From contig CACBHY010000002.1 of NCBI GenBank assembly GCA_902539165.1, positions 165,342-229,341 on the forward strand: a DNA stretch of 64,000 nt, in the 5' to 3' direction. The notes below the pieces were generated by a model, which was given only the letters and a program-made list of their open reading frames with translations, searched no databases and was not told where the DNA came from. A program made the translations under genes and the position numbers. This document shows positions 3,751 to 64,000 of this stretch, piece after piece. This DNA comes from an uncultured Pelagibacteraceae bacterium. GTDB taxonomy: Bacteria; Pseudomonadota; Alphaproteobacteria; Pelagibacterales; Pelagibacteraceae. Within the stretch, counting starts at the first letter, position 1. The number at the start of each line of letters is the position of its first letter.

Positions 3751-4675
3751 ACTGACTTTTAACTTTAATACTTTTTTGTTTAACTTTATCTCTCCAAATA
3801 ATTATCATACCAGCTAAAACAATTGCTAAGACACCTGGAAAAAGTTGCCCCCATGGTGCTTCTTTAAAAAAAATCCATCCAAGAACAAAAGACGAAGGTA
3901 TACCCAAATATTCAAATGAAGCCATTTTACTTGCTGAGATTAACCTGTAAGAATAAATAAACAAAATTGCAGCAGTTCCACCTAAGATACCAGTTAAAGT
4001 CATTAAAAAGAAATCTTCAATACTTTTAATTTCAACATGCCCACTTGTAATGAAATATAAAATTACACCCCCAATAACATTAAAAATTAGAGTGAAAAGT
4101 TGTATCTTTGCAGTTGAGTGACCATCAGGAATAAATTTAAGAATTATAACGGTCATAGCCCAAGCGATAGCTGTTAAAATAGGAAAGATTGAATAGAAAT
4201 TGAATATCTCACTGGTAGGTTTCATAATTAGTACAACACCTAAAAAACCTATAAAAATCGCTGACCATCTGTAAATTCCAATCTTGTCTTTTAAAAAAAA
4301 TATTGAAAATATAACTATAAAAAAAGGGGAAGAAAAAGTTAGAGTCATTGCAGTTGCAAATTCAAGATTTATTACCGAAATAAAGATAAATATATTCATA
4401 GCTAAAAATCCCAAACCTCTAAAAAAGCTTAGTGTCATGAAGGTTTTATTTAAATTTTTAAAAATTGTGAAATGCTCTTTTGTATACAAAATCAGCAAAA
4501 TTAAAGGTATAACTCCAGCAATATTTCTAAAGACTGCAAGTTGAATTACTGAATACTCGTTTCCAAGAAATTTAATTACCACCATATATAAATCAACACA
4601 TAGAATTGCCATCAGCATAGTCGTAACTGCAAGGTAAGTTTTTTTAATATCAATTTTTTCTGAGGAAATTTTCAT
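3743..4675 (-). CDS. EamA/DMT-family transporter
   Basis: 310 aa, about 10 TM segments, EamA-like repeats. Confidence 0.8.
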   Translation of the reverse strand: MKISSEKIDIKKTYLAVTTMLMAILCVDLYMVVIKFLGNEYSVIQLAVFRNIAGVIPLILLILYTKEHFTIFKNLNKTFMTLSFFRGLGFLAMNIFIFISVINLEFATAMTLTFSSPFFIVIFSIFFLKDKIGIYRWSAIFIGFLGVVLIMKPTSEIFNFYSIFPILTAIAWAMTVIILKFIPDGHSTAKIQLFTLIFNVIGGVILYFITSGHVEIKSIEDFFLMTLTGILGGTAAILFIYSYRLISASKMASFEYLGIPSSFVLGWIFFKEAPWGQLFPGVLAIVLAGMIIIWRDKVKQKSIKVKSQFN

Positions 4676-52225: not shown

Positions 52226-53494
52226 TTAATTATATTTTTTTTCTAGAATTAAATCTAAAAATAAAGAGGCAGTCCAAGAAAAGTTTTTGGCACCGTATGG
52301 ATTACCATTATTGGTATCAAAATACTCATAAAATCCACTTTTTTTAACTAGATCAATTGTTTTCCTTCGCACTAAGTTTGCAAATTTTTTATCTTTATCT
52401 TTTAGTCCTTGATATATTATCCAGTTACAATTAATCCAAACTGGGCCTCTCCAATATCTTTTTTCCTCATACTTAATGTTATTAGGTTTAATACTAGAGA
52501 AAAAAAACTTATCCTTGGAGTTATGTTTTCTAAGTGTTTTAATAATTTCTTTGTTAATTAACTTGTTCTTTAAATCTGCAAATAAAATAAAATAATTAGT
52601 TATAGAAGGTGCTGTTATTTTTTTTTTATTTTTTATATCATAATTGACAAAACTTTTTTTCCTTTTGTCATATAATTTTTCAATTTGAGTTTCAGATTTT
52701 ACGATATAATTTTGTATATCTTTATATTCAAGATTAAATTTTTTAAGTAAACTTAATAGATCTTTATTAGCTTTTAAAAAAATAGAATTAAATCCAACAT
52801 CAACTACGTTAAACATTGAATTTTGATAAAGTTTTTTTGGATCATATTTATTTTTTCTTAAATGATTTTTTATAGTCACATATCTGTCATAGTCGATGTC
52901 TAAAGGCCTGAAATCAGGATTAATAATTTTGTTATCTCCTCTTTTGTATTTTAAATTTTTCTCAATTTTAATTGCATTTAATGGTTTGTCCCATAATGGT
53001 GAGTTATCATATCCACTTTCCCATGGGTGTAAAATTGAGACTAGACCTGAATTTTTAGGGTCTCTGTATTTTAGTAACCATTGATGATACTTTGTAATTT
53101 TTTTGATTATTGATTTAATTTTAAATTTATCTTTATTTTTAATTATAATTTTTTCTAAAATTTTTCTTAACATAATAGCCAATATTGGCGGCTGTGTTAT
53201 TCCAGAGGATCTAATTTTATTTCCACAATTCCATACAGAGTGATTTGGATAATAATTCGTATTTAAATCATGAAATAAAATATGTGGGACCATACCGTCA
53301 TTCCATTGACCTCTCAAAAGTGTATTAATTTCCTCTAACGCGAACTTGAGATTAAAATGAGAGTAACCTAAAGCAATAAATCCAGAATCCCAATTCCATT
53401 GGGCTGGGTATAATTTATTGTTAGTTGGTAATGTATAACCTTTTTTTCTATTACCTAATAAAACTTTTTTTGCTTGGTTTATTTCGTTCAACAT
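52226..53494 (-). CDS. GH63/trehalase-like (alpha/alpha)6 glycoside hydrolase, glucosylglycerate hydrolase-like
   Basis: YPAQWNWDSGFIALGYSHF, RYWRGPVWINCNWIIYQGL, YFDTNNGNPYGAKNFSWTASLFLDL; operon with a GpgS-like gene. Confidence 0.78.
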   Translation of the reverse strand: MLNEINQAKKVLLGNRKKGYTLPTNNKLYPAQWNWDSGFIALGYSHFNLKFALEEINTLLRGQWNDGMVPHILFHDLNTNYYPNHSVWNCGNKIRSSGITQPPILAIMLRKILEKIIIKNKDKFKIKSIIKKITKYHQWLLKYRDPKNSGLVSILHPWESGYDNSPLWDKPLNAIKIEKNLKYKRGDNKIINPDFRPLDIDYDRYVTIKNHLRKNKYDPKKLYQNSMFNVVDVGFNSIFLKANKDLLSLLKKFNLEYKDIQNYIVKSETQIEKLYDKRKKSFVNYDIKNKKKITAPSITNYFILFADLKNKLINKEIIKTLRKHNSKDKFFFSSIKPNNIKYEEKRYWRGPVWINCNWIIYQGLKDKDKKFANLVRRKTIDLVKKSGFYEYFDTNNGNPYGAKNFSWTASLFLDLILEKKYN

Positions 53495-54714
53495 TAAAGA
53501 TAATGCATATTATCTTCATTTACTGCTTTTTCCAATCTAATTAAAAAATCAGGAATTGCACTTTTTACTCTACTCCATGTTGGAATAAAAGGAGCATCCA
53601 TCGGGTTTAAATAAAAGTCCTCTCCAGCTTTAATGATGTTACTCGAAAACAGTTCGACCGCTTTTTCTTCAGTATGCGAGTCAAATTTTAACCCATTCAT
53701 TTCCGCATCAGCCCTGTAAGCGTCTATTAAATCTAAAGCGGATCTATAATAAGTAGCTTTTAACGACCTTAATTGCTCTCTACTAAATGAATGACCTTGT
53801 GTAGCTAATTTTTTGATAAAAGTTTTAATAATATCAATTGACATTCTTGATAAACCTTTTTTTTCGTCATCTTGTGACAAATCTTGATGCTTATGATCAT
53901 AGGTATCTGCAAGATCTACCTGGCAAATATTTTGAGGTGAAAAATTTCTTTGCATTTCAGATAAAATGCCAATTTCTATACCCCAGTCCGATGAAATTCT
54001 AAGTTCAGGTAGAATATTTCTTCTAAACGAAAATTCACCTGCTAGAGGGTATTTAAACGACTTCATAAAGTCTAAATAATCACTTTTACCAATTGTTTTT
54101 TCTAAAGCGTTTAATATAGGAAAAACTAATAGTCTTGCTACACGTCCATTCATTTTATTATCAGCAACCCTTGGATAAAAACCTTTACAAAACTCAAAAT
54201 TAAATAAAGGGTTCACAACTGGGTAAAACAATTTTGCAAGCATTCTTCTGTCATAAGTCTTAATATCACAATCATGCAAAGCAACTGACCTTGCGCTGTC
54301 TCTTGCAATAGACATTCCTATGCAATACCAAACGTTTCTTCCTTTTCCATATTCATTTGGTGCCAACCCTTTTTTTTGCAATTCTCTATCTAATTTTTTT
54401 AAATTAGGTCCATCATTCCAAAGAATAGTAAAAGGAGTTTCTAATTTTTCAAAAAAATTCCAGGCCTTCCTTGCCTGTGCTTCACTTGCTTGATCTAAAC
54501 CAATTATTATATGATTAATATAATTAGTCTTACTTATCTCAGACACTATCTTAGGTAACGCATCACCCGTAAGCTCAGAATAAAGACATGGCAATATAAG
54601 TTCCATCTTTCTCTCTTTAGAAAAACCTAAAAGTTCTTTTTCAATTTGCTCTAATGATTTTGTTCCAAAATCGTGAAGGGTTGAAATTATTCCATTCTGA
54701 GAAAAATCACTCAT
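53494..54714 (-). CDS. gpgS: Glucosyl-3-phosphoglycerate synthase-like glycosyltransferase
   Basis: GT81-like motifs: GKGRNVWYCIGMSIARDSARSVALHDCDIKTYDRRMLAKLFYPV, LAGEFSFRRNILPELRISSDWGIEIGIL. Confidence 0.82.
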   Translation of the reverse strand: MSDFSQNGIISTLHDFGTKSLEQIEKELLGFSKERKMELILPCLYSELTGDALPKIVSEISKTNYINHIIIGLDQASEAQARKAWNFFEKLETPFTILWNDGPNLKKLDRELQKKGLAPNEYGKGRNVWYCIGMSIARDSARSVALHDCDIKTYDRRMLAKLFYPVVNPLFNFEFCKGFYPRVADNKMNGRVARLLVFPILNALEKTIGKSDYLDFMKSFKYPLAGEFSFRRNILPELRISSDWGIEIGILSEMQRNFSPQNICQVDLADTYDHKHQDLSQDDEKKGLSRMSIDIIKTFIKKLATQGHSFSREQLRSLKATYYRSALDLIDAYRADAEMNGLKFDSHTEEKAVELFSSNIIKAGEDFYLNPMDAPFIPTWSRVKSAIPDFLIRLEKAVNEDNMHYL

Positions 54715-54725
54715 AGGATAGATTA

Positions 54726-55529
54726 TTAATTTTTAATAATTTTAACTAGAGCCTTTTTGATCACATCTGCCCAGCCCTCTGGGGATGGCTTATTTGTTAT
54801 TGTTATATTGTTTATAGGGATTTCATCTAAGGTAAATTTATCATTAAACACCAAACAAGGAAAATCACTCGTTTTAAGCATATCTAAATCATTATAATTA
54901 TCACCAACAGCTATTGTTTTTACATTTTTGTTATTTTTTTTGAAAAATCTAACAAACACATTTAGTGCCTTAGCTTTATTCACTTTGTCAGTTAAATTAA
55001 TTACTCTTCCACCTTCTTGCGCTGCAAGATTTTCACTTTTTAAAATTCTAAATAATTCATTTTTCTCACTCTTGTTTCCTTCAAATAAAAAGGGAATTGT
55101 ATATTTGCGATCTAAAGCCATTTTTAGTTTTTCGTCCCCTAAACCAAAAATTAAACTTTGTTTTTTCTTATCCATATCAGATAACCATTTACATTTATTT
55201 TGTAAATTTGCTGGTATAGATTTTTCAAAAATTTTAATCAAATTATCTTTCTCTCTACTGAGAATTAATTCTTTAGGTAAATTTGAATTTATTAGATTTA
55301 AACCATTTATAGCTGCACCGTTTTCAGAAATATAAGGTAAATCTGATCCAAGCTCGTTATTAAATTCTAAAATCTCTTTTTCTGTTTTACTTGTGTTGGG
55401 TATTATGAAAATTCCTTGGGAAAGAAGTAATTTCAGATAGTCTTTTATTTCATCAAATTTGAATGTGTCTCTATGGAGAAGAGAGCCATCAAGATCAGTA
55501 AAAATTAGAATTTTATAATTTTTATTCAT
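54726..55529 (-). CDS. HAD-IIB phosphatase, mannosyl/glucosyl-3-phosphoglycerate phosphatase-like
   Basis: IFTDLDGSLLHRDTF, FIIPNTSKTEKEI, YISENGAAI, AVGDNYNDLDML. Confidence 0.82.
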   Translation of the reverse strand: MNKNYKILIFTDLDGSLLHRDTFKFDEIKDYLKLLLSQGIFIIPNTSKTEKEILEFNNELGSDLPYISENGAAINGLNLINSNLPKELILSREKDNLIKIFEKSIPANLQNKCKWLSDMDKKKQSLIFGLGDEKLKMALDRKYTIPFLFEGNKSEKNELFRILKSENLAAQEGGRVINLTDKVNKAKALNVFVRFFKKNNKNVKTIAVGDNYNDLDMLKTSDFPCLVFNDKFTLDEIPINNITITNKPSPEGWADVIKKALVKIIKN

Positions 55530-57007: not shown

Positions 57008-57778
57008 ATGAGTAAGCCTCAAATCATTTCAGATAAAAATAAAAAGTCTCTTAAAATTAAAATTTTACTTAAAAAGAAGATTGAAACTAATCAATTTACA
57101 AAATCAAAGCTTGTCATTGTAATAGGAGGAGATGGTTTTATGCTTCAAACACTCAAAAAAAATAAGAATTCAAGCAAACAATTCTATGGAATTAATTCTG
57201 GAAATTATGGATTTCTAATGAATATATTTTCTTCAAAAAATATTATCAAAAATTTAACTAAAGCCAATATGATATCTATATCCCCCTTAGAAATGACGGT
57301 TAAAAGTAAAAATAATACAACTAAAAAATCACTAGCAATTAACGAGGTATCTGTTCTTAGACAAAGTAGGCAGGCCGCATCATTATCAATTAAACAAGGT
57401 TCAAGACAAATAATTAAAAAGCTAGTTGCAGATGGTGTTTTAGTTTCAACTCCTGCAGGCAGCACCGCCTATAATATGTCAGTTCATGGTCCTATATTGA
57501 GTTTGAATTCAAAAAAATTATCTATTTCTCCAATAAGTCCGTTCAGACCTAGAAGATGGAAAGGTAAAATTGTTAACGATAAATCAAAAATTACTATTAC
57601 AAATTTAAACCCAGTTAAAAGGCCCATTAGCGCTGTTGCTGATAACTTAGAAGTAAGAAATGCAAAATCGATTATAGTTAAAACCAATAACAAAATTAAA
57701 TTTAATCTTCTTTATGACAAAAACAGAAGTTTACAAAAAAAAATAAAAATTGAACAATTAAGAAAAGAAACTTCATAA
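57008..57778 (+). CDS. nadK: NAD kinase
   Basis: VIGGDGFMLQTL, NSGNYGFLMN, ADGVLVSTPAGSTAYNMSVHGPIL. Confidence 0.9.
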   Translation: MSKPQIISDKNKKSLKIKILLKKKIETNQFTKSKLVIVIGGDGFMLQTLKKNKNSSKQFYGINSGNYGFLMNIFSSKNIIKNLTKANMISISPLEMTVKSKNNTTKKSLAINEVSVLRQSRQAASLSIKQGSRQIIKKLVADGVLVSTPAGSTAYNMSVHGPILSLNSKKLSISPISPFRPRRWKGKIVNDKSKITITNLNPVKRPISAVADNLEVRNAKSIIVKTNNKIKFNLLYDKNRSLQKKIKIEQLRKETS

Positions 57779-57803
57779 ATTTGAAATTTAATACAAATTT
57801 TAT

Positions 57804-57941
57804 ATGAAAAAAATAAATCCAATTATATTTATAGCAATAGTTTTAATTGGTGGTTTTTTTGCATTTAAAATAATGTCATTTTTGGGTTGTTATGTTCGTC
57901 TTGAAGATGCAGATGCATGCTGGAAATTAACTTCTTGGTAA
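57804..57941 (+). CDS. Small membrane protein, 45 aa (absent from the supplied ORF track)
   Basis: ATG..TAA ORF: MKKINPIIFIAIVLIGGFFAFKIMSFLGCYVRLEDADACWKLTSW. Confidence 0.5.
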   Translation: MKKINPIIFIAIVLIGGFFAFKIMSFLGCYVRLEDADACWKLTSW

Positions 57942-57949
57942 AAGATTGA

Positions 57950-57999
57950 TGGTGCCCCCGCACGGATTCGAACCGCGGACCTATTGATTACAAATCAAT
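57950..57999. repeat. attL-like 50-bp direct repeat: displaced 3' fragment of tRNA-Thr
   Basis: TGGTGCCCCCGCACGGATTCGAACCGCGGACCTATTGATTACAAATCAAT, identical to 63679-63728. Confidence 0.93.
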
Positions 58000-58072
58000 A
58001 AAGTTAATTATTTTTCCTTTCATTAACATTGATAATACTTAACTAATAGAGTCCTGTCTATTGAAGCTTTTA

Positions 58073-58095
58073 AAATTCACTTCAAATTCACTTCA
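58073..58095. repeat. Left internal repeat AAATTCACTTCAAATTCACTTCA (tandem 11-mers AATTCACTTCA)
   Basis: 23-nt identical copy at 63554-63576, same orientation. Confidence 0.8.
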
Positions 58096-58137
58096 CATTT
58101 TTCTTCTAATTTATCTTAGTAAATCATATTATTAAAT

Positions 58138-59571
58138 ATGGTATTTCAAAATATTTGGTCAGGATTTAAAAATCTTTTTTCTACAGAAGTCGAACTTCAA
58201 GAACCATTTACATTTCCAAAATTAGAAAAACTCAATGAAGTTATTAAAAAATTTAAAATTGATGAAGAAGCTAAAAAAGATGGGGAAAAAAATCTACCAA
58301 GATCTGATAGAAAAAATTTAAGTGCAGCTGAAGAAAAAATTAAAGGCCATTATTACAGCATAATGCAGAATAGTAAAAAATTTGGAACCGAATATTCAAA
58401 TAACGTAAAACAAAATATCGATAATAGTGGAATTATGACTGTCGATGCTAAAATTGATAATTACAAAAAAGACTCAACTAATTGGTTTAATGAAAAAAAG
58501 AAAGAATCTAAAAATTTTAAATATTTTGATAATGAAAAAATCAAAGATGCCACTAATCGATATAATGAGTTTAGAAAAAAACATTCTTTAAATAGAAGAG
58601 CTAATTTTCCACCTTCATTAGTTTATTATTATGCTACTGTTAGCGCCCTGTTCCTTGCTGAATGTCTTATTAATGGTTTATTTCTCAAAGAAGTAACAAG
58701 ATCAGGTATAATGGGAGGTATTGGTATCGCTATAATAATTTCCTTCTTTAATGTTTGGATAGGTTTTTTATATGGGAGATTTGTTTTGCCCTTCAAAAAT
58801 CATTTTAATGGAACTGTTAAATTTTTTGGATTTTTAAGTTTGTTAATTATTTTAGTATGGTTTTTATGTGTTAATTTTTTTGTAGCTCACTATAGAGACC
58901 TAATTGTCGTAAATAATGAAATAGCATTTATTGAGGTTATACAATTTATACTAGCTAGTCCTTTAGAGATAAAAGATTTTATTTCTTTTGCATTATTAGT
59001 TGTCGGTATTGTTTTTGGTGTTTCTGCGGTTGGCAGTGGATATAAATCAGACGATCCTTACCCAGGTTTTGGTGCCGCAGAGAGATTTAAAGATAATACG
59101 ATGAAAAGATATGCAGACACGCATTATAAATATTTAATGGAGTGCAAAGATCATAAAGATCATTTAATTCGTGAAATTAGAGAATTATACAAACAAATGA
59201 GAATTAAATATAAATCAATAAATCAAATGATAGATTTATTTACAACACTTGGTGAGAAATACGAGATACAAATTAAACGTATAAATAGTGAGTGCAAACA
59301 AGCAATAATGCATTACAGAAACGAAAATGAGAGGGCAAGAACAGATAAACCACCAAAGTATTTCGAAAAACCATTTATTTTTGAAGAAACTGGAAGATTA
59401 AATGTAGATATAAATGATCAAACTAAAATGGTTCTTAAATTGAAAAATAAAGTTTCAACTATTGAAAAAGATCAAAAAGAAATTGTTAAACATATTGAGT
59501 CTAAGTATGAAGATGCAACTAAAAAAGTTCAGGATCTTGTTGATTTTCACTCAGAAGAACTAGAAAGATAA
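58138..59571 (+). CDS. Island gene 1: multi-TM protein with soluble N-terminal and coiled-coil-like C-terminal regions
   Basis: 477 aa; about 4 TM between residues 160 and 310; no recognised family. Confidence 0.7.
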   Translation: MVFQNIWSGFKNLFSTEVELQEPFTFPKLEKLNEVIKKFKIDEEAKKDGEKNLPRSDRKNLSAAEEKIKGHYYSIMQNSKKFGTEYSNNVKQNIDNSGIMTVDAKIDNYKKDSTNWFNEKKKESKNFKYFDNEKIKDATNRYNEFRKKHSLNRRANFPPSLVYYYATVSALFLAECLINGLFLKEVTRSGIMGGIGIAIIISFFNVWIGFLYGRFVLPFKNHFNGTVKFFGFLSLLIILVWFLCVNFFVAHYRDLIVVNNEIAFIEVIQFILASPLEIKDFISFALLVVGIVFGVSAVGSGYKSDDPYPGFGAAERFKDNTMKRYADTHYKYLMECKDHKDHLIREIRELYKQMRIKYKSINQMIDLFTTLGEKYEIQIKRINSECKQAIMHYRNENERARTDKPPKYFEKPFIFEETGRLNVDINDQTKMVLKLKNKVSTIEKDQKEIVKHIESKYEDATKKVQDLVDFHSEELER

Positions 59572-59573
59572 TC

Positions 59574-60407
59574 ATGCCAAGTTTTGAAGATGAAAAAAAA
59601 TCCCTAGATAACAAAGGTTACTTAATATTTGGAGCTTTAATTTTCATCGTTGCTTTAGTAATATGTTATTATGTTTATAAAAGCATAACTTCTGTAGAAT
59701 TAAATTCAAAAGGTTGTCCAGTTAAAGGTCCTTTTTCTGAACATGTTGTTCTTTTTGATCAGACAGACACTGTAAAAGATAAACCAATCGTCGAAGTAGA
59801 TGCTAGAAATTTTTTAGATAAAATTAAAATTGATGTCCCTCAATATAGTCGTCTATCTATTTACGTGATTAAAAATGATCCTGAAGGACGAAATATAAAA
59901 CCTGTCATTTCTGTTTGTAATCCAGGAGATGAAAGAAATTTAAGTTATTTTGAAAAATCTGGAATTACCCTAACAGTAAAAAAATATATGGAAGACTGGG
60001 AAAAAAATTTTAGCCAGATTATTAATCCAGTAATTAATAAAATTATGGAAAGATCAACCAGCCCCACTTCACCTATTTTTGAAATGATTAATGTTGTTAG
60101 CATTAATAGTTTTAAACATTCAAATCCAAAATATATTCATAAACTTGTTATATTTTCTGATTTTATGCATCATACTAGTGAATATTCTTTTTATAATACA
60201 TCAGATATAAATATTAAAAAATTTACTGATACTAGATATTTTAAAAATGTTTATTCTAGCTTGAGAGATAATGTTGATGTGGAGTTATACTGTTATAAAC
60301 GATATGAAAACGGACAATGTGATAATGTTGAGGGTTTTTGGAATAAATATTTTCAAGAAATAGATGCGCACAATAATAATATCAAATTTTCTAGGATAGG
60401 CTCATAA
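59574..60407 (+). CDS. Island gene 2: single-TM-anchored VWA-like protein
   Basis: N-terminal TM (GYLIFGALIFIVALVICYYVY); HVVLFDQTDTV with MIDAS-like DxTxT; HKLVIFSDFM strand. Confidence 0.65.
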   Translation: MPSFEDEKKSLDNKGYLIFGALIFIVALVICYYVYKSITSVELNSKGCPVKGPFSEHVVLFDQTDTVKDKPIVEVDARNFLDKIKIDVPQYSRLSIYVIKNDPEGRNIKPVISVCNPGDERNLSYFEKSGITLTVKKYMEDWEKNFSQIINPVINKIMERSTSPTSPIFEMINVVSINSFKHSNPKYIHKLVIFSDFMHHTSEYSFYNTSDINIKKFTDTRYFKNVYSSLRDNVDVELYCYKRYENGQCDNVEGFWNKYFQEIDAHNNNIKFSRIGS

Positions 60408-61378
60408 TGGCTAAGAATGAAGTGCCAACAGTAAAATTAAGAAGAACTAGTGCTGGAAATTTAAGAAATTTTTTTTTCATTTTTACTATAATTGGTGTTG
60501 CATCAATAGTTATTGTAAGAGGGCTTCAAGATTCATTATTATTACAAATGGCTCTACCTGGTCTTGTGGTTTTATTTTATGCAATTTTTATATTCAATAA
60601 AGGAAGAAATGTTTTAAATCTAGATCAGCTTGGTGACAGTGTGTATTATTTGGGTTTTATTTTAACACTGGCAGCATTAATTTTAGCTCTTTATGATTTA
60701 TCCGATGACCCAACCGCAGAGGATATTATTCCAAAGTTTGCAATTGCCCTAACGACTACTGTTGTTGGAATATTTGTCAGAGTTTTTATGTCTCAATTTG
60801 CTGCCTCACAAGAAGACATAAATGAAATGTCTGAAAGAATGCTATCTGATACAGCTCTAAGTCTTAAAACACAGCTCGATATGAGTACCAGTACATTTAA
60901 AAACTTAATCGATGAGATGAGCAGAAAGACCAGTGAGTCTTTAGAAAAAAATAGTATTGAATTAACCACCTTTCTAAAAGAAAATTCAGAGGAATTTGCT
61001 AAATCCTCAAAAAAAGTAATCTCAAATATAAATCTTGCCTCAGATACTTTGGTTAAAAAAACAAGTGATTTAGATAAAACTTTAGAAAATCTTAATAAGA
61101 CTACTGAAAGCTTTAATGAGAATTTAAATACACTTAATTCTGCTTTAACACAAAATAATCCAGCAAGAGAGATATCAGATTTACAAGATGTTTTTGATAA
61201 TATGACAAAATCAATGGAAGCTTACAAAAATATTGTTTCAACAGATATTAAAGAAATCACATCAAATAAAAAAGAAATTTTCAAATCATTAGAAGAGTCT
61301 AGAGAAGCTTTACAAAAAATGTACAACAACATGTCAAGCATGTCGGATTTAATAGTTTCTAAACTGAAACGAAAATAA
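60407..61378 (+). CDS. Island gene 3: MotA/TolQ/ExbB/ZorA-like membrane protein with long coiled-coil tail
   Basis: TM segments incl. LGDSVYYLGFILTLAALILAL and FAIALTTTVVGIFVRVFMSQF, then about 170 aa of predicted coiled coil. Confidence 0.7.
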   Translation: MAKNEVPTVKLRRTSAGNLRNFFFIFTIIGVASIVIVRGLQDSLLLQMALPGLVVLFYAIFIFNKGRNVLNLDQLGDSVYYLGFILTLAALILALYDLSDDPTAEDIIPKFAIALTTTVVGIFVRVFMSQFAASQEDINEMSERMLSDTALSLKTQLDMSTSTFKNLIDEMSRKTSESLEKNSIELTTFLKENSEEFAKSSKKVISNINLASDTLVKKTSDLDKTLENLNKTTESFNENLNTLNSALTQNNPAREISDLQDVFDNMTKSMEAYKNIVSTDIKEITSNKKEIFKSLEESREALQKMYNNMSSMSDLIVSKLKRK

Positions 61379-62229
61379 TGTTAAACCTTCATAAAGTTAG
61401 AAGAGGGCAAGTTTTTAGTTTTACTCTTACAGAATTGATATTGTTAATTCTTTTCATTTTATTATTACTGTTATGGCTTATCACAAATAAAAAAAATGAA
61501 GAATTAGTTAAATGGACTGAAGTAACAGGGACTAGCACTCCGGAGGAATACAAGATGCTATATCCAAATTTTCCTGACAAGACAACGACTCCTGATATTC
61601 AAGACAGATTAAAATCAGCTAACAAGGAATTAATAAAATTAAAAGAAGAGAATAAAGAATTAAAAGAAATGCTTGAAAAATTTGCTGAAAAAACAGGTAA
61701 AGAAAATCCTGAAGACCTTCCATTAAATACAAAATCTGTAATTGCAAAGGCTGAGAAGGGGTTGGGAAGAAACCCTCCATGCTGGCCAAAAGGTTGGCCA
61801 GATAACCCTGATTATGAAAATGCTGACAGAATTTTAAATGTATTATTTTTGGGTGTAGATCAAATTGCAATTATACCAGATTATCCAGATATTTATAAAG
61901 ATCAGTATAAGTTGTTACCTATTAACAAAAGTATATTAAGCTCAAATAATGACTTTAAAAATAAAACTCTAAAAAGAATATCATCTGGAGATTTTATAAA
62001 GAACTTTGATCGATTACTCCAGGTTAGTAAAAAGGAAATGGATATTAAACATAACAATCTTACTCTTAGAAGAGATTGCAGACACGAAGTAAGACTCTTT
62101 ATAGAAAACGAAAGTATATCTAGAAAAGAATATATAAGGTTGAAAGAAGAAACTGTAGAATATGTATTTGATACATTTAGATTTAGAGATGATAAATACA
62201 ATGATTACTTATTAAAGTATAAGAATTAA
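61378..62229 (+). CDS. Island gene 4: MotB/ZorB-like single-TM anchored protein
   Basis: VRRGQVFSFTLTELILLILFILLLLLWLI TM, coiled coil, then domain with GRNPPCWPKGWP and RRDCRHEVRLF motifs; directly overlaps gene 3. Confidence 0.6.
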   Translation: MLNLHKVRRGQVFSFTLTELILLILFILLLLLWLITNKKNEELVKWTEVTGTSTPEEYKMLYPNFPDKTTTPDIQDRLKSANKELIKLKEENKELKEMLEKFAEKTGKENPEDLPLNTKSVIAKAEKGLGRNPPCWPKGWPDNPDYENADRILNVLFLGVDQIAIIPDYPDIYKDQYKLLPINKSILSSNNDFKNKTLKRISSGDFIKNFDRLLQVSKKEMDIKHNNLTLRRDCRHEVRLFIENESISRKEYIRLKEETVEYVFDTFRFRDDKYNDYLLKYKN

Positions 62230-62507
62230 TGAACAAAGAAACTTTAGATGAAAAGATATTAGCTCTCAGAACAGCAGTTTTAAGTAACTTATTAAGAAAA
62301 AAAAAGATAAAACACTCAGTTCCTGATTTAGAGAAAATGGTAATTAATAAAAGTGATTTATCTGTTTATAATTATTTTTCTTCAAGAAAAAATGTAAAGA
62401 AAAGATTTATTATTTACATTATATCAATCATAATTGTCTCAATAGCTTCATATATTATTTACACATATTGGCCTTTAACAAATTTGAAGGATTTAATTGT
62501 TAAATGA
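62229..62507 (+). CDS. Island gene 5: small single-TM protein
   Basis: 92 aa, C-terminal TM RFIIYIISIIIVSIASYIIYTYW; overlaps its neighbours. Confidence 0.65.
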   Translation: MNKETLDEKILALRTAVLSNLLRKKKIKHSVPDLEKMVINKSDLSVYNYFSSRKNVKKRFIIYIISIIIVSIASYIIYTYWPLTNLKDLIVK

Positions 62508-63046
62508 AGAAAAATTTTTTCTTTTTAGCAATTCTTTTTATTTTTTTTACAAATTATTCATTTTCACAAGATGTTAAGATTCTAGATGGAGATACGATTA
62601 AAATTAATGGAGAGACAATACGATTTTCAGGAATAGATACACCTGAGACCACTTATTATCGAAAATACAAACAACTTTGTTATTTAAACAACCAGAAAAT
62701 ATATTGTGGGGAGTTATCCAAAAATAAGCTTATAGAAAAAATTTCCAATAATAAGATTAATTGTATTAGAGAAGAAAAAAAAGACGTGTGGGGACGTACT
62801 TTAGCTGAGTGTTTTGTAAATAATGAAAGTTTATCTAGTTACTTAGTAAAAACTGGATATGCCTTTGATTTTAAAAAGTATTCCAAAAAAAAATTTAATA
62901 CAGAAGAAGTATATGCAAAAGAAAATAATCTTGGTTTATGGACAATGAAATTTTTATATCCTTGGGAATGGAGAGCTAAAATTAGAAAATATAGAAAAGA
63001 TAAAAGTACTCTTAAAGATATTGAAATGTGGATGGAAATTAAATAA
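62504..63046 (+). CDS. Island gene 6: exported thermonuclease (staphylococcal nuclease-like)
   Basis: Signal peptide MKKNFFFLAILFIFFTNYSFS; VKILDGDTIKINGETIRFSGIDTPET; DVWGRTLAE, retaining Arg/Glu/Arg catalytic positions; ATGA overlap with gene 5. Confidence 0.87.
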   Translation: MKKNFFFLAILFIFFTNYSFSQDVKILDGDTIKINGETIRFSGIDTPETTYYRKYKQLCYLNNQKIYCGELSKNKLIEKISNNKINCIREEKKDVWGRTLAECFVNNESLSSYLVKTGYAFDFKKYSKKKFNTEEVYAKENNLGLWTMKFLYPWEWRAKIRKYRKDKSTLKDIEMWMEIK

Positions 63047-63092
63047 TCAAAACTATCAAATATTTGCCATATTTAGTTATTATATTAATAAT

Positions 63093-63110
63093 TGTTAAAG
63101 TTCTTTAACA
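63093..63110. promoter_or_regulatory. Perfect inverted repeat TGTTAAAG-TT-CTTTAACA upstream of the last island ORF
   Basis: 8-bp arms, 2-nt spacer, 24 nt before the ATG. Confidence 0.5.
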
Positions 63111-63134
63111 GTAAACTTCAGCAACACATAAACT

Positions 63135-63509
63135 ATGAAACAACTAGAATTAGATTTTAATTCAATAAATCTTTCTGATCACTATGAAGCTTATCAGGTT
63201 ATCGATGAGGGAAAAAATAAAATTTGTAGTTGGTCTGATTCATTGAGTGATGATGGAAAAAAGATAAGCTATAACGAGTTTACTTATAACACCACTCAAT
63301 GCATGGACTTCGAAAATTGGATTCATATTGACAAAAACGGTTTAGGTAAATCTGCATTCAAATGGCTTTGCATGTTCCTAAGGAGCATTAAAGGACGTGC
63401 AGACAGATTGGATAGGCTTAAAAAAGTTTTGGATGATGTGTGCATACCTTTTGAAGAAGGGGACTGGCAAACGATTGATAGAGATTGTGAAAGAGACAAA
63501 CTGAATTAA
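63135..63509 (+). CDS. Island gene 7: hypothetical soluble protein
   Basis: 124 aa ORF with its own upstream spacer and palindrome; no recognised family. Confidence 0.6.
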   Translation: MKQLELDFNSINLSDHYEAYQVIDEGKNKICSWSDSLSDDGKKISYNEFTYNTTQCMDFENWIHIDKNGLGKSAFKWLCMFLRSIKGRADRLDRLKKVLDDVCIPFEEGDWQTIDRDCERDKLN

Positions 63510-63516
63510 TCTCAAG

Positions 63517-63542
63517 TTAATAAAAATTTATTAAAGTTTTTT
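63517..63542 (+). terminator. Weak AT-only inverted repeat TTAATAAA-AA-TTTATTAA followed by a T-run
   Basis: Perfect palindrome followed by AG and T6. Confidence 0.35.
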
Positions 63543-63553
63543 GTGAATAAATT

Positions 63554-63576
63554 AAATTCACTTCAAATTCACTTCA
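63554..63576. repeat. Right internal repeat AAATTCACTTCAAATTCACTTCA
   Basis: Identical 23-nt copy of 58073-58095. Confidence 0.8.
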
Positions 63577-63678
63577 GTGAGTTCTATCTCCTTCCTTTCT
63601 ATAGTCTTATTAAACGATTTTTATTTTAAAAAAAATTTAAATAAAATTTGAGTTTGTTGAAAATAAATGAGATTTTAG

Positions 63679-63728
63679 TGGTGCCCCCGCACGGATTCGA
63701 ACCGCGGACCTATTGATTACAAATCAAT
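63679..63728. repeat. attR-like 50-bp direct repeat within intact tRNA-Thr
   Basis: Identical to 57950-57999. Confidence 0.93.
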
Positions 63729-63754
63729 TGCTCTACCAACTGAGCTACAAGGGC
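63679..63754 (-). tRNA. tRNA-Thr (anticodon TGT), CCA encoded
   Basis: Reverse strand GCCCTTGTAGCTCAGTTGGTAGAGCAATTGATTTGTAATCAATAGGTCCGCGGTTCGAATCCGTGCGGGGGCACCA. Confidence 0.95.
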
Positions 63755-63787
63755 ATGCGCAATAATTATTAACTATTTATTAAATAA

Positions 63788-64000
63788 TCAACTCTTTTTT
63801 TTGATATAACTTAAATGATGAAAGGCTATAGCAGCACTATTAGAGATATTTAAACTTTCAATTTTATCATTAATATTAATTTTAACGAAGAAATCAGTAT
63901 ATTTACTTGTATGTTGTCTCATACCAAATCCCTCAGAACCAAATAATAAAATAGTATTTTCTTCCCACTTGATATCTGTGAAATCCTTTTCACCCCTCGC
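63788..64000 (-). CDS. TrmH/SpoU-family rRNA/tRNA methyltransferase (C-terminal part; runs off the window)
   Basis: Reverse translation ...NTILLFGSEGFGMRQHTSKYTDFFVKININDKIESLNISNSAAIAFHHLSYIKKKS*. Confidence 0.87.
   Translation of the reverse strand, partial: ARGEKDFTDIKWEENTILLFGSEGFGMRQHTSKYTDFFVKININDKIESLNISNSAAIAFHHLSYIKKKS

Follow-up and report, generated by a model that had tools for sequence, protein, structure and literature searches.

On the forward strand of a 64,000-nucleotide (nt) stretch of DNA from an uncultured Pelagibacteraceae bacterium (positions 165342 to 229341 of contig CACBHY010000002.1, referred to below as the window), a compact operon of six genes encodes what we take, with moderate confidence, to be a trans-envelope and probably ion-driven motor of the 5:2 type, which holds a DNA-cutting enzyme in the periplasm, is carried as mobile cargo, and most likely protects its host against incoming DNA. 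Sequence and comparison supply the features that carry this reading—a four-gene core, a von Willebrand factor A (vWA) fold in gene 2, the MotB/ZorB homology of gene 4, an exported and apparently intact nuclease, the repeated recruitment of nucleases and their fusion to the periplasmic terminus of gene 4, and the mobility of the operon. The host genome comprises 1.2 Mb in 26 contigs, the end of the window coinciding with a contig end; from its size and gene content, the organism is probably SAR11-like.

The conserved core and its putative motor subunits

All six co-directional open reading frames (ORFs) proposed as one operon in the preliminary description of this DNA, which was made from the sequence alone, were recovered on the + strand: gene 1 (58138-59571, 477 amino acids), gene 2 (59574-60407, 277 amino acids), gene 3 (60407-61378, 323 amino acids), gene 4 (61378-62229, 283 amino acids), gene 5 (62229-62507, 92 amino acids, with one transmembrane (TM) helix), and gene 6 (62504-63046, 180 amino acids). 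Genes 1 and 2 are separated by a 2-bp gap, the junctions 2/3, 3/4, and 4/5 are overlaps of 1 nt, and genes 5 and 6 overlap by 4 nt. Scans against Pfam, NCBIfam, PADLOC, and PHROGs gave no credible family for genes 1, 2, 4, and 5, the Pfam matches in the operon being limited to MotA_ExbB (gene 3) and SNase (gene 6); no named system was matched in these four libraries, as had been suggested.

The arrangement is not a product of chance, which is excluded because the complete set of six is found again in another genome (locus L007 of genome G241) and genes 1-2-3-4 stand in the same order at about 100 other alphaproteobacterial loci, bearing out the expectation that the operon is conserved as a unit. 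The family was opened by a tblastn search with the N-terminal membrane half of gene 3, which returned 24 plasmid records from Rhizobium, Sinorhizobium, Paracoccus, Microvirga, and Tistrella. The opened plasmid loci contain the same four genes in the same order, with gene 4 frequently annotated as 'OmpA family protein' and, in many cases, an adjoining gene annotated as 'thermonuclease family protein'; pairwise identity between their proteins and those of the window is merely about 17-25%, which makes the conservation of gene order meaningful. A scan of genome contigs for relatives found 199, of which 80 were kept, and purpose-built hidden Markov models recovered the order gene 1-gene 2-gene 3-gene 4 in the kept loci except where a contig end or a frame break intervened. 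At 80% gene-1 identity, 89 loci fall into 35 clusters. Gene 5 was found with certainty in the closest relative (L007) only, and a search for it in genome G020 gave no significant homology.

Gene 1, present in all complete system loci, had been described as a multi-TM protein, which its AlphaFold2 model (predicted local distance difference test (pLDDT) 86.1, predicted template modelling score (pTM) 0.60) refines to four TM helices between coiled-coil arms; a fold search with this model found no relative in the PDB at E<=0.001, only long-helix noise. The gene 2 model, built with 40 homologues (pLDDT 86.4, pTM 0.81), has a predicted Rossmann-like vWA fold, its best Foldseek matches in the PDB being the vWA-fold proteins Rpn10, TFIIH subunits, CMG2, and integrin I domains. 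Gene 2 had been called VWA-like on account of a DQTDT motif (residues 62-66) resembling a metal-ion-dependent adhesion site (MIDAS); the fold assignment is upheld by the model, but the motif is non-canonical, as the MIDAS pattern DxSxS...T...D is absent and the alignment shows D-x-[ST]-D instead. Residues D62/D65, S195-D196, and C48/C115 are invariant in the alignment. The vWA domain is placed in the periplasm because a K/R-rich N-terminus precedes the single TM helix in 39/40 members.

Gene 3, with a membrane part of four predicted TM helices followed by a long cytoplasmic coiled-coil tail, would be a remote MotA/TolQ relative, although the relationship is marginal. The window protein matches PF01618 at 24.2 bits, just above the cut-off of 22.9, and the best matches to TolQ/MotA profiles fall on two motifs of the family, GDxxYYLGxxxTL and ALxxTxxGxxxR, with scores that exceed those of reversed-sequence and gene 1 controls. 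T87 and T118, located at ion-ring positions, are invariant in 103/103 members.

The gene 4 family appears MotB/ZorB-like on firmer grounds, its profile matching ZorB in structure 8vvi (E=5.9e-8) as well as PomB and MotB; 8VVI is a ZorB-containing ZorAB structure (PMC11890865). T16 and E19 of the TM helix are invariant in 100/100 members, E19 sitting where MotB, TolR, and ZorB carry Asp when the position is aligned by eye. An OmpA domain was recognised in 34 of the 46 members scanned. The MotB/ZorB-like character first attributed to gene 4 thus stands at the level of the family, and its PPCW (residues 133-136) and DCRHEVRL (residues 233-240) motifs were located, but the window protein itself is without OmpA and carries in its place a C-terminal outer domain of the form P[PS]CW...CR[HF], common to loci L118, L122, and L166 and, judged by eye, present in L168 also. 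A search of plasmids with the PxCW domain of L122 found nothing. Positive-inside counts gave no clear orientation for gene 4, the periplasmic topology of which rests on the OmpA domain. Between the window and L007, DNA identity falls to 68-80% in the region 61438-62338 of the window, a local hotspot of divergence that covers the periplasmic half of gene 4 and reaches into gene 5; elsewhere in the operon it is about 90-97%. An identity of 68-71% for the periplasmic half of gene 4 alone, inside an otherwise near-identical operon, suggests that this domain has been exchanged or is under diversifying pressure.

Nucleases, probably periplasmic, as partners of the putative motor

The tie between the putative motor and a nuclease is judged the strongest result of the analysis. 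Gene 6 had been proposed to encode an SNase-like nuclease with a signal peptide, and this assignment is well supported: the protein matches PF00565 at 52.9 bits (cut-off 21), alignment to staphylococcal nuclease places all catalytic residues (D30, R40, D45, E48, and R98), and the N-terminus ahead of them is signal-peptide-like. The same catalytic residues are conserved across system-linked SNases, so that the enzyme is predicted to be exported and intact. In 17/35 clusters the core has a linked SNase gene, which may lie upstream or downstream of it and on either strand, usually no more than about 300 bp away. Of 17 genomes with the system, each detected in the genome surveys through gene 1 or gene 4 and without regard to SNase, 11 carry an SNase within about 1.5 kb of the core or fused to it, whereas 0.044 would be expected from the SNase counts and sizes of these genomes. 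In three genomes of different families (L126, L165, and L169) gene 4 and the SNase form a single protein, in which the gene 4 TM helix is followed by an OmpA-like region and a C-terminal SNase, and in L127 gene 4 ends in an HNH nuclease (GmrSD_C) unrelated to SNase. OmpA-type domains bind peptidoglycan, and for that reason the fused nuclease should be periplasmic. The exported nuclease, first suggested as a partner by its place in the operon, is thus supported as a true component of the system, and it should lie on the periplasmic face of the motor.

In the SNase tree the linked enzymes are not gathered in a single clade, and the starred branches require a minimum of six switches between the linked and the unlinked state; nucleases would therefore have been recruited or exchanged repeatedly, and a single origin of the system-linked enzymes is unsupported by the tree. 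Exchange of C-terminal nucleases on a protein of a surface complex resembles the behaviour of polymorphic toxins and could indicate a device for interbacterial antagonism, with the nuclease as a toxin delivered to neighbouring cells. This appears very unlikely, as the fused nuclease remains tethered to an inner-membrane subunit, and no immunity gene, export tip, or secretion gene is conserved beside the system.

Mobility, distribution, and genomic context

The operon is mobile cargo. Its description as the cargo of an island can now be made exact: a perfect 50-nt direct repeat, att-like and corresponding to the 3' part of tRNA-Thr, brackets a unit of 5.7 kb that holds the operon and an ORF of 124 amino acids (63135-63509, + strand), the family of which was not recognised in the library scans. 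The left copy (57950-57999, + strand) is 100% identical to the right copy (63679-63728), which is part of an intact tRNA-Thr (TGT) identified by ARAGORN on the - strand (63679-63754). In G241, the copy at L007 occupies the opposite side of tRNA-Leu and the NAD kinase gene, flanked by two repeats of 113 nt (4138-4250 and 10250-10362 of L007), each of which takes in the 5' part of tRNA-Leu. Genes 1-3 of the two copies are 92-96% identical at the DNA level, in contrast to 73% for the neighbouring NAD kinase gene, which argues that the operon was recently transferred to two different sites. Neither the window unit nor the L007 unit was seen to contain an integrase.

The region with tRNA-Leu/NAD kinase on one side and tRNA-Thr/rlmB on the other is a hotspot for insertions in this order of bacteria, varying from 0.13 to 17 kb (window 57008-64000; L007, L120, and L121), and several of its units are flanked by partial-tRNA repeats with no integrase seen inside; another repeat pair, of 134 nt, lies at tRNA-Leu in L120. 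The spacing between the NAD kinase gene and rlmB measures 133-286 bp in six relatives, 6 kb in the window genome, and 17 kb in G024, while the 12.5-kb gap of G114 holds a divergent gene 1-gene 2 pair and a PrsW-like protein. Such divergent pairs without genes 3-4, adjoining a PrsW-like membrane protein, occur at L119, L120, and L121 in other genomes of the order and give this sensor-like pair a second arrangement; at L119, an antisense SNase also adjoins it. Elsewhere in the window, three adjacent genes on the - strand (52226-55529), encoding a glycoside hydrolase, a glycosyltransferase, and an HAD phosphatase, resemble by sequence an osmolyte cluster of the glucosylglycerate type.

The distribution of gene 1 is patchy, the gene being found in 11/399 genomes sampled from the phylum, with all 11 belonging to the same class, in 16/386 from the class, and in 6/298 from the order. 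A locus from a 'Flavobacteriaceae' metagenome-assembled genome (L090) is probably mis-binned and was not counted as spread outside Alphaproteobacteria, and weak gene 4 matches in G336 and G690 were rejected, there being no system genes there. A tblastn search with gene 4 against plasmids and phages found nothing. Carriage by phages is not supported, as the viral scan gave three relatives, one of which, by its equal length of 23,019 bases, is apparently a Faunimonas contig already present among the genome matches.

The flanks of system loci match 42 PADLOC models (E<=1e-10), against 10 in control regions of similar gene number taken from arbitrary regions of related genomes, a comparison that counts models, several per protein, against a small control set and so weighs as supporting evidence only. 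Named neighbours include Cas10 in the L168 flank, PDC-S06 next to L028, and, near L007, a helicase of the restriction type; the Cas10 gene (type III CRISPR; L168 12718-16560) closely follows an operon that is among the most divergent. Taken together, the motor pair, the vWA domain, the swapped nucleases, the mobility, the patchiness, and the neighbours favour defence against incoming DNA, and the purpose of the system, as far as context indicates it, would most likely be anti-phage or anti-plasmid defence. Scavenging or uptake of DNA, with the motor and vWA protein handling extracellular DNA and the nuclease yielding nucleotides for phosphorus, nitrogen, or carbon, would agree with the fusion of an exported nuclease to a motor subunit and with the nutrient-limited, streamlined genomes among the hosts. 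It is nonetheless an unlikely purpose, since neither transporter nor phosphatase genes are conserved beside the system loci, and the low survey frequencies (11/399 and 16/386), the mobile tRNA-bracketed unit, the nuclease swapping, and the defence neighbours fit conflict better.

Relation to known envelope machines and proposed action

Zorya is the closest comparison. The system appears to share with Zorya a motor-like A/B pair with a long cytoplasmic tail on the A subunit, and it resembles Zorya in its association with a nuclease and in its patchy, island-borne distribution (PMC11890865); the OmpA-type periplasmic domain of the Zorya B subunit recurs in most gene 4 members. Unlike Zorya, every complete locus here contains an additional vWA protein and a coiled-coil protein with four TM helices, the critical Asp of Zorya is replaced by Glu in 100/100 gene 4 members, and the nuclease is exported or attached to the periplasmic end of the B subunit, whereas Zorya effectors act in the cytoplasm. 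As had been noted at the outset, no ZorC-, ZorD-, or ZorE-like gene is present, PADLOC giving no such match among the window genes. That the operon is a Zorya member with unusual effectors could be argued from the long-tailed motor-like pair, the ZorB-related OmpA domain, and weak matches of PADLOC ZorA models to several gene 3 members; in the window gene 3, these are confined to the coiled coil (residues 124-320) and were not used for ZorA membership. Because ZorC/D/E are missing, Glu stands where Zorya has Asp, the core has two further genes, and the effector would act in a different compartment, membership is the least probable of the alternatives, and the best reading of the sequences is a Zorya-like but distinct envelope machine.

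TolQ-vWA force transducers likewise encode a TM-anchored periplasmic vWA protein beside a MotA/TolQ-type gene, but they lack nucleases, and their transpore-helix type has no separate TolR/ExbD-like gene, the vWA protein, with an acidic residue in its helix, being the dimeric partner itself (PMC12204202), whereas the present system includes a separate B subunit (gene 4, with the invariant E19), gene 1, and a nuclease. The separate B subunit places it outside that family in the form without one (PMC12204202). A complex for envelope maintenance or force transduction in the style of Tol-Pal or of the TolQ-vWA proteins, with a nuclease for the clean-up of periplasmic DNA, would nevertheless accord with the description of vWA proteins beside TolQ-like motors as force transducers (PMC12204202) and with the OmpA domain of most gene 4 members. 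We regard it as rather unlikely in view of the patchy survey results, which indicate no core function, the separate B subunit, and the apparently repeated recruitment of catalytically intact nucleases. With the 5:2 motors MotAB, TolQR, and ExbBD, the system shares an A/B gene pair, an acidic residue in the B helix, ring Thr residues, and a MotB/PomB-style OmpA-type domain, but it stands in no flagellar, Tol-Pal, or Ton context, it has a nuclease, vWA, and gene 1 as partners, and its gene 3 relation is marginal. SNIPE, a membrane-bound nuclease that cuts phage DNA during injection, also holds a nuclease at the inner membrane, at the site of DNA entry, but consists of one protein in which DUF4041 and GIY-YIG face the cytoplasm (PMC13190303); the operon would instead encode a multi-protein complex with a periplasmic SNase or HNH nuclease, and a Pfam scan found neither DUF4041 nor GIY-YIG in its proteins. 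In its working, the system may come closest to Zorya, in joining motor and nuclease (PMC11890865), with the nuclease placed at the site of DNA entry after the manner of SNIPE (PMC13190303). No description of it was found in the literature searched, many preprints and subscription papers lying outside the reach of that search.

From the parts described above, we infer that the subunits assemble in a 5:2 ratio, that ions flow, that a trigger exists by which the nuclease is activated, and that the purpose is anti-phage. A gene 3 pentamer would surround a gene 4 dimer, Glu19 of gene 4 facing the T87/T118 ring of gene 3, with the gene 3 tail and the gene 1 coiled-coil arms in the cytoplasm. On the periplasmic side would lie the gene 4 outer domain, which is of the OmpA type in most members but of the PxCW type in the window, together with the anchored gene 2 vWA domain. 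These two periplasmic domains could bind peptidoglycan, envelope partners, or components of phage entry. A disturbance of the envelope at the point of DNA entry might then switch the motor, bringing the SNase (or HNH) nuclease to the spot or activating it there, and the DNA would be cut before or during its crossing of the inner membrane.

Several observations weigh against this proposal. Its weakest link is gene 3: PF01618 recognises only 1/39 members, and hhalign comparisons with TolQ and a wider MotA/TolQ/ExbB set were not significant, so that of the MotA/TolQ/ZorA-like identity first given to gene 3 the borderline family match, the ring Thr residues, and the long tail stand, while profile comparison does not confirm it. 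About half of the clusters are without an SNase in the flank examined, and exported SNases serve other purposes too. Divergent gene 1-gene 2 pairs without genes 3-4, moreover, make up some of the gene 1 survey matches.

If the proposal holds, the operon may represent an unrecognised class of immune machine, a possibility that we hold more tentatively and at somewhat less than even confidence: an ion-driven envelope motor with a periplasmic DNA-cutting effector, SNase and HNH being interchangeable, which would destroy invading DNA before it reaches the cytoplasm, spread as tRNA-bracketed cargo among minimal ocean bacteria. Zorya detects at the envelope but attacks DNA inside the cytoplasm, whereas this family would unite nuclease and motor subunit in an envelope complex acting where host DNA is absent, the cell's own DNA being kept safe by compartment. 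The natural fusions allow a direct test, as one mutated protein probes both halves. Gene 1 and the PxCW domain each represent a conserved protein family that is recognised by no Pfam, NCBIfam, or PADLOC model, and streamlined SAR11-like bacteria would appear to receive elaborate envelope machinery as tRNA-bracketed cargo of about 6 kb.

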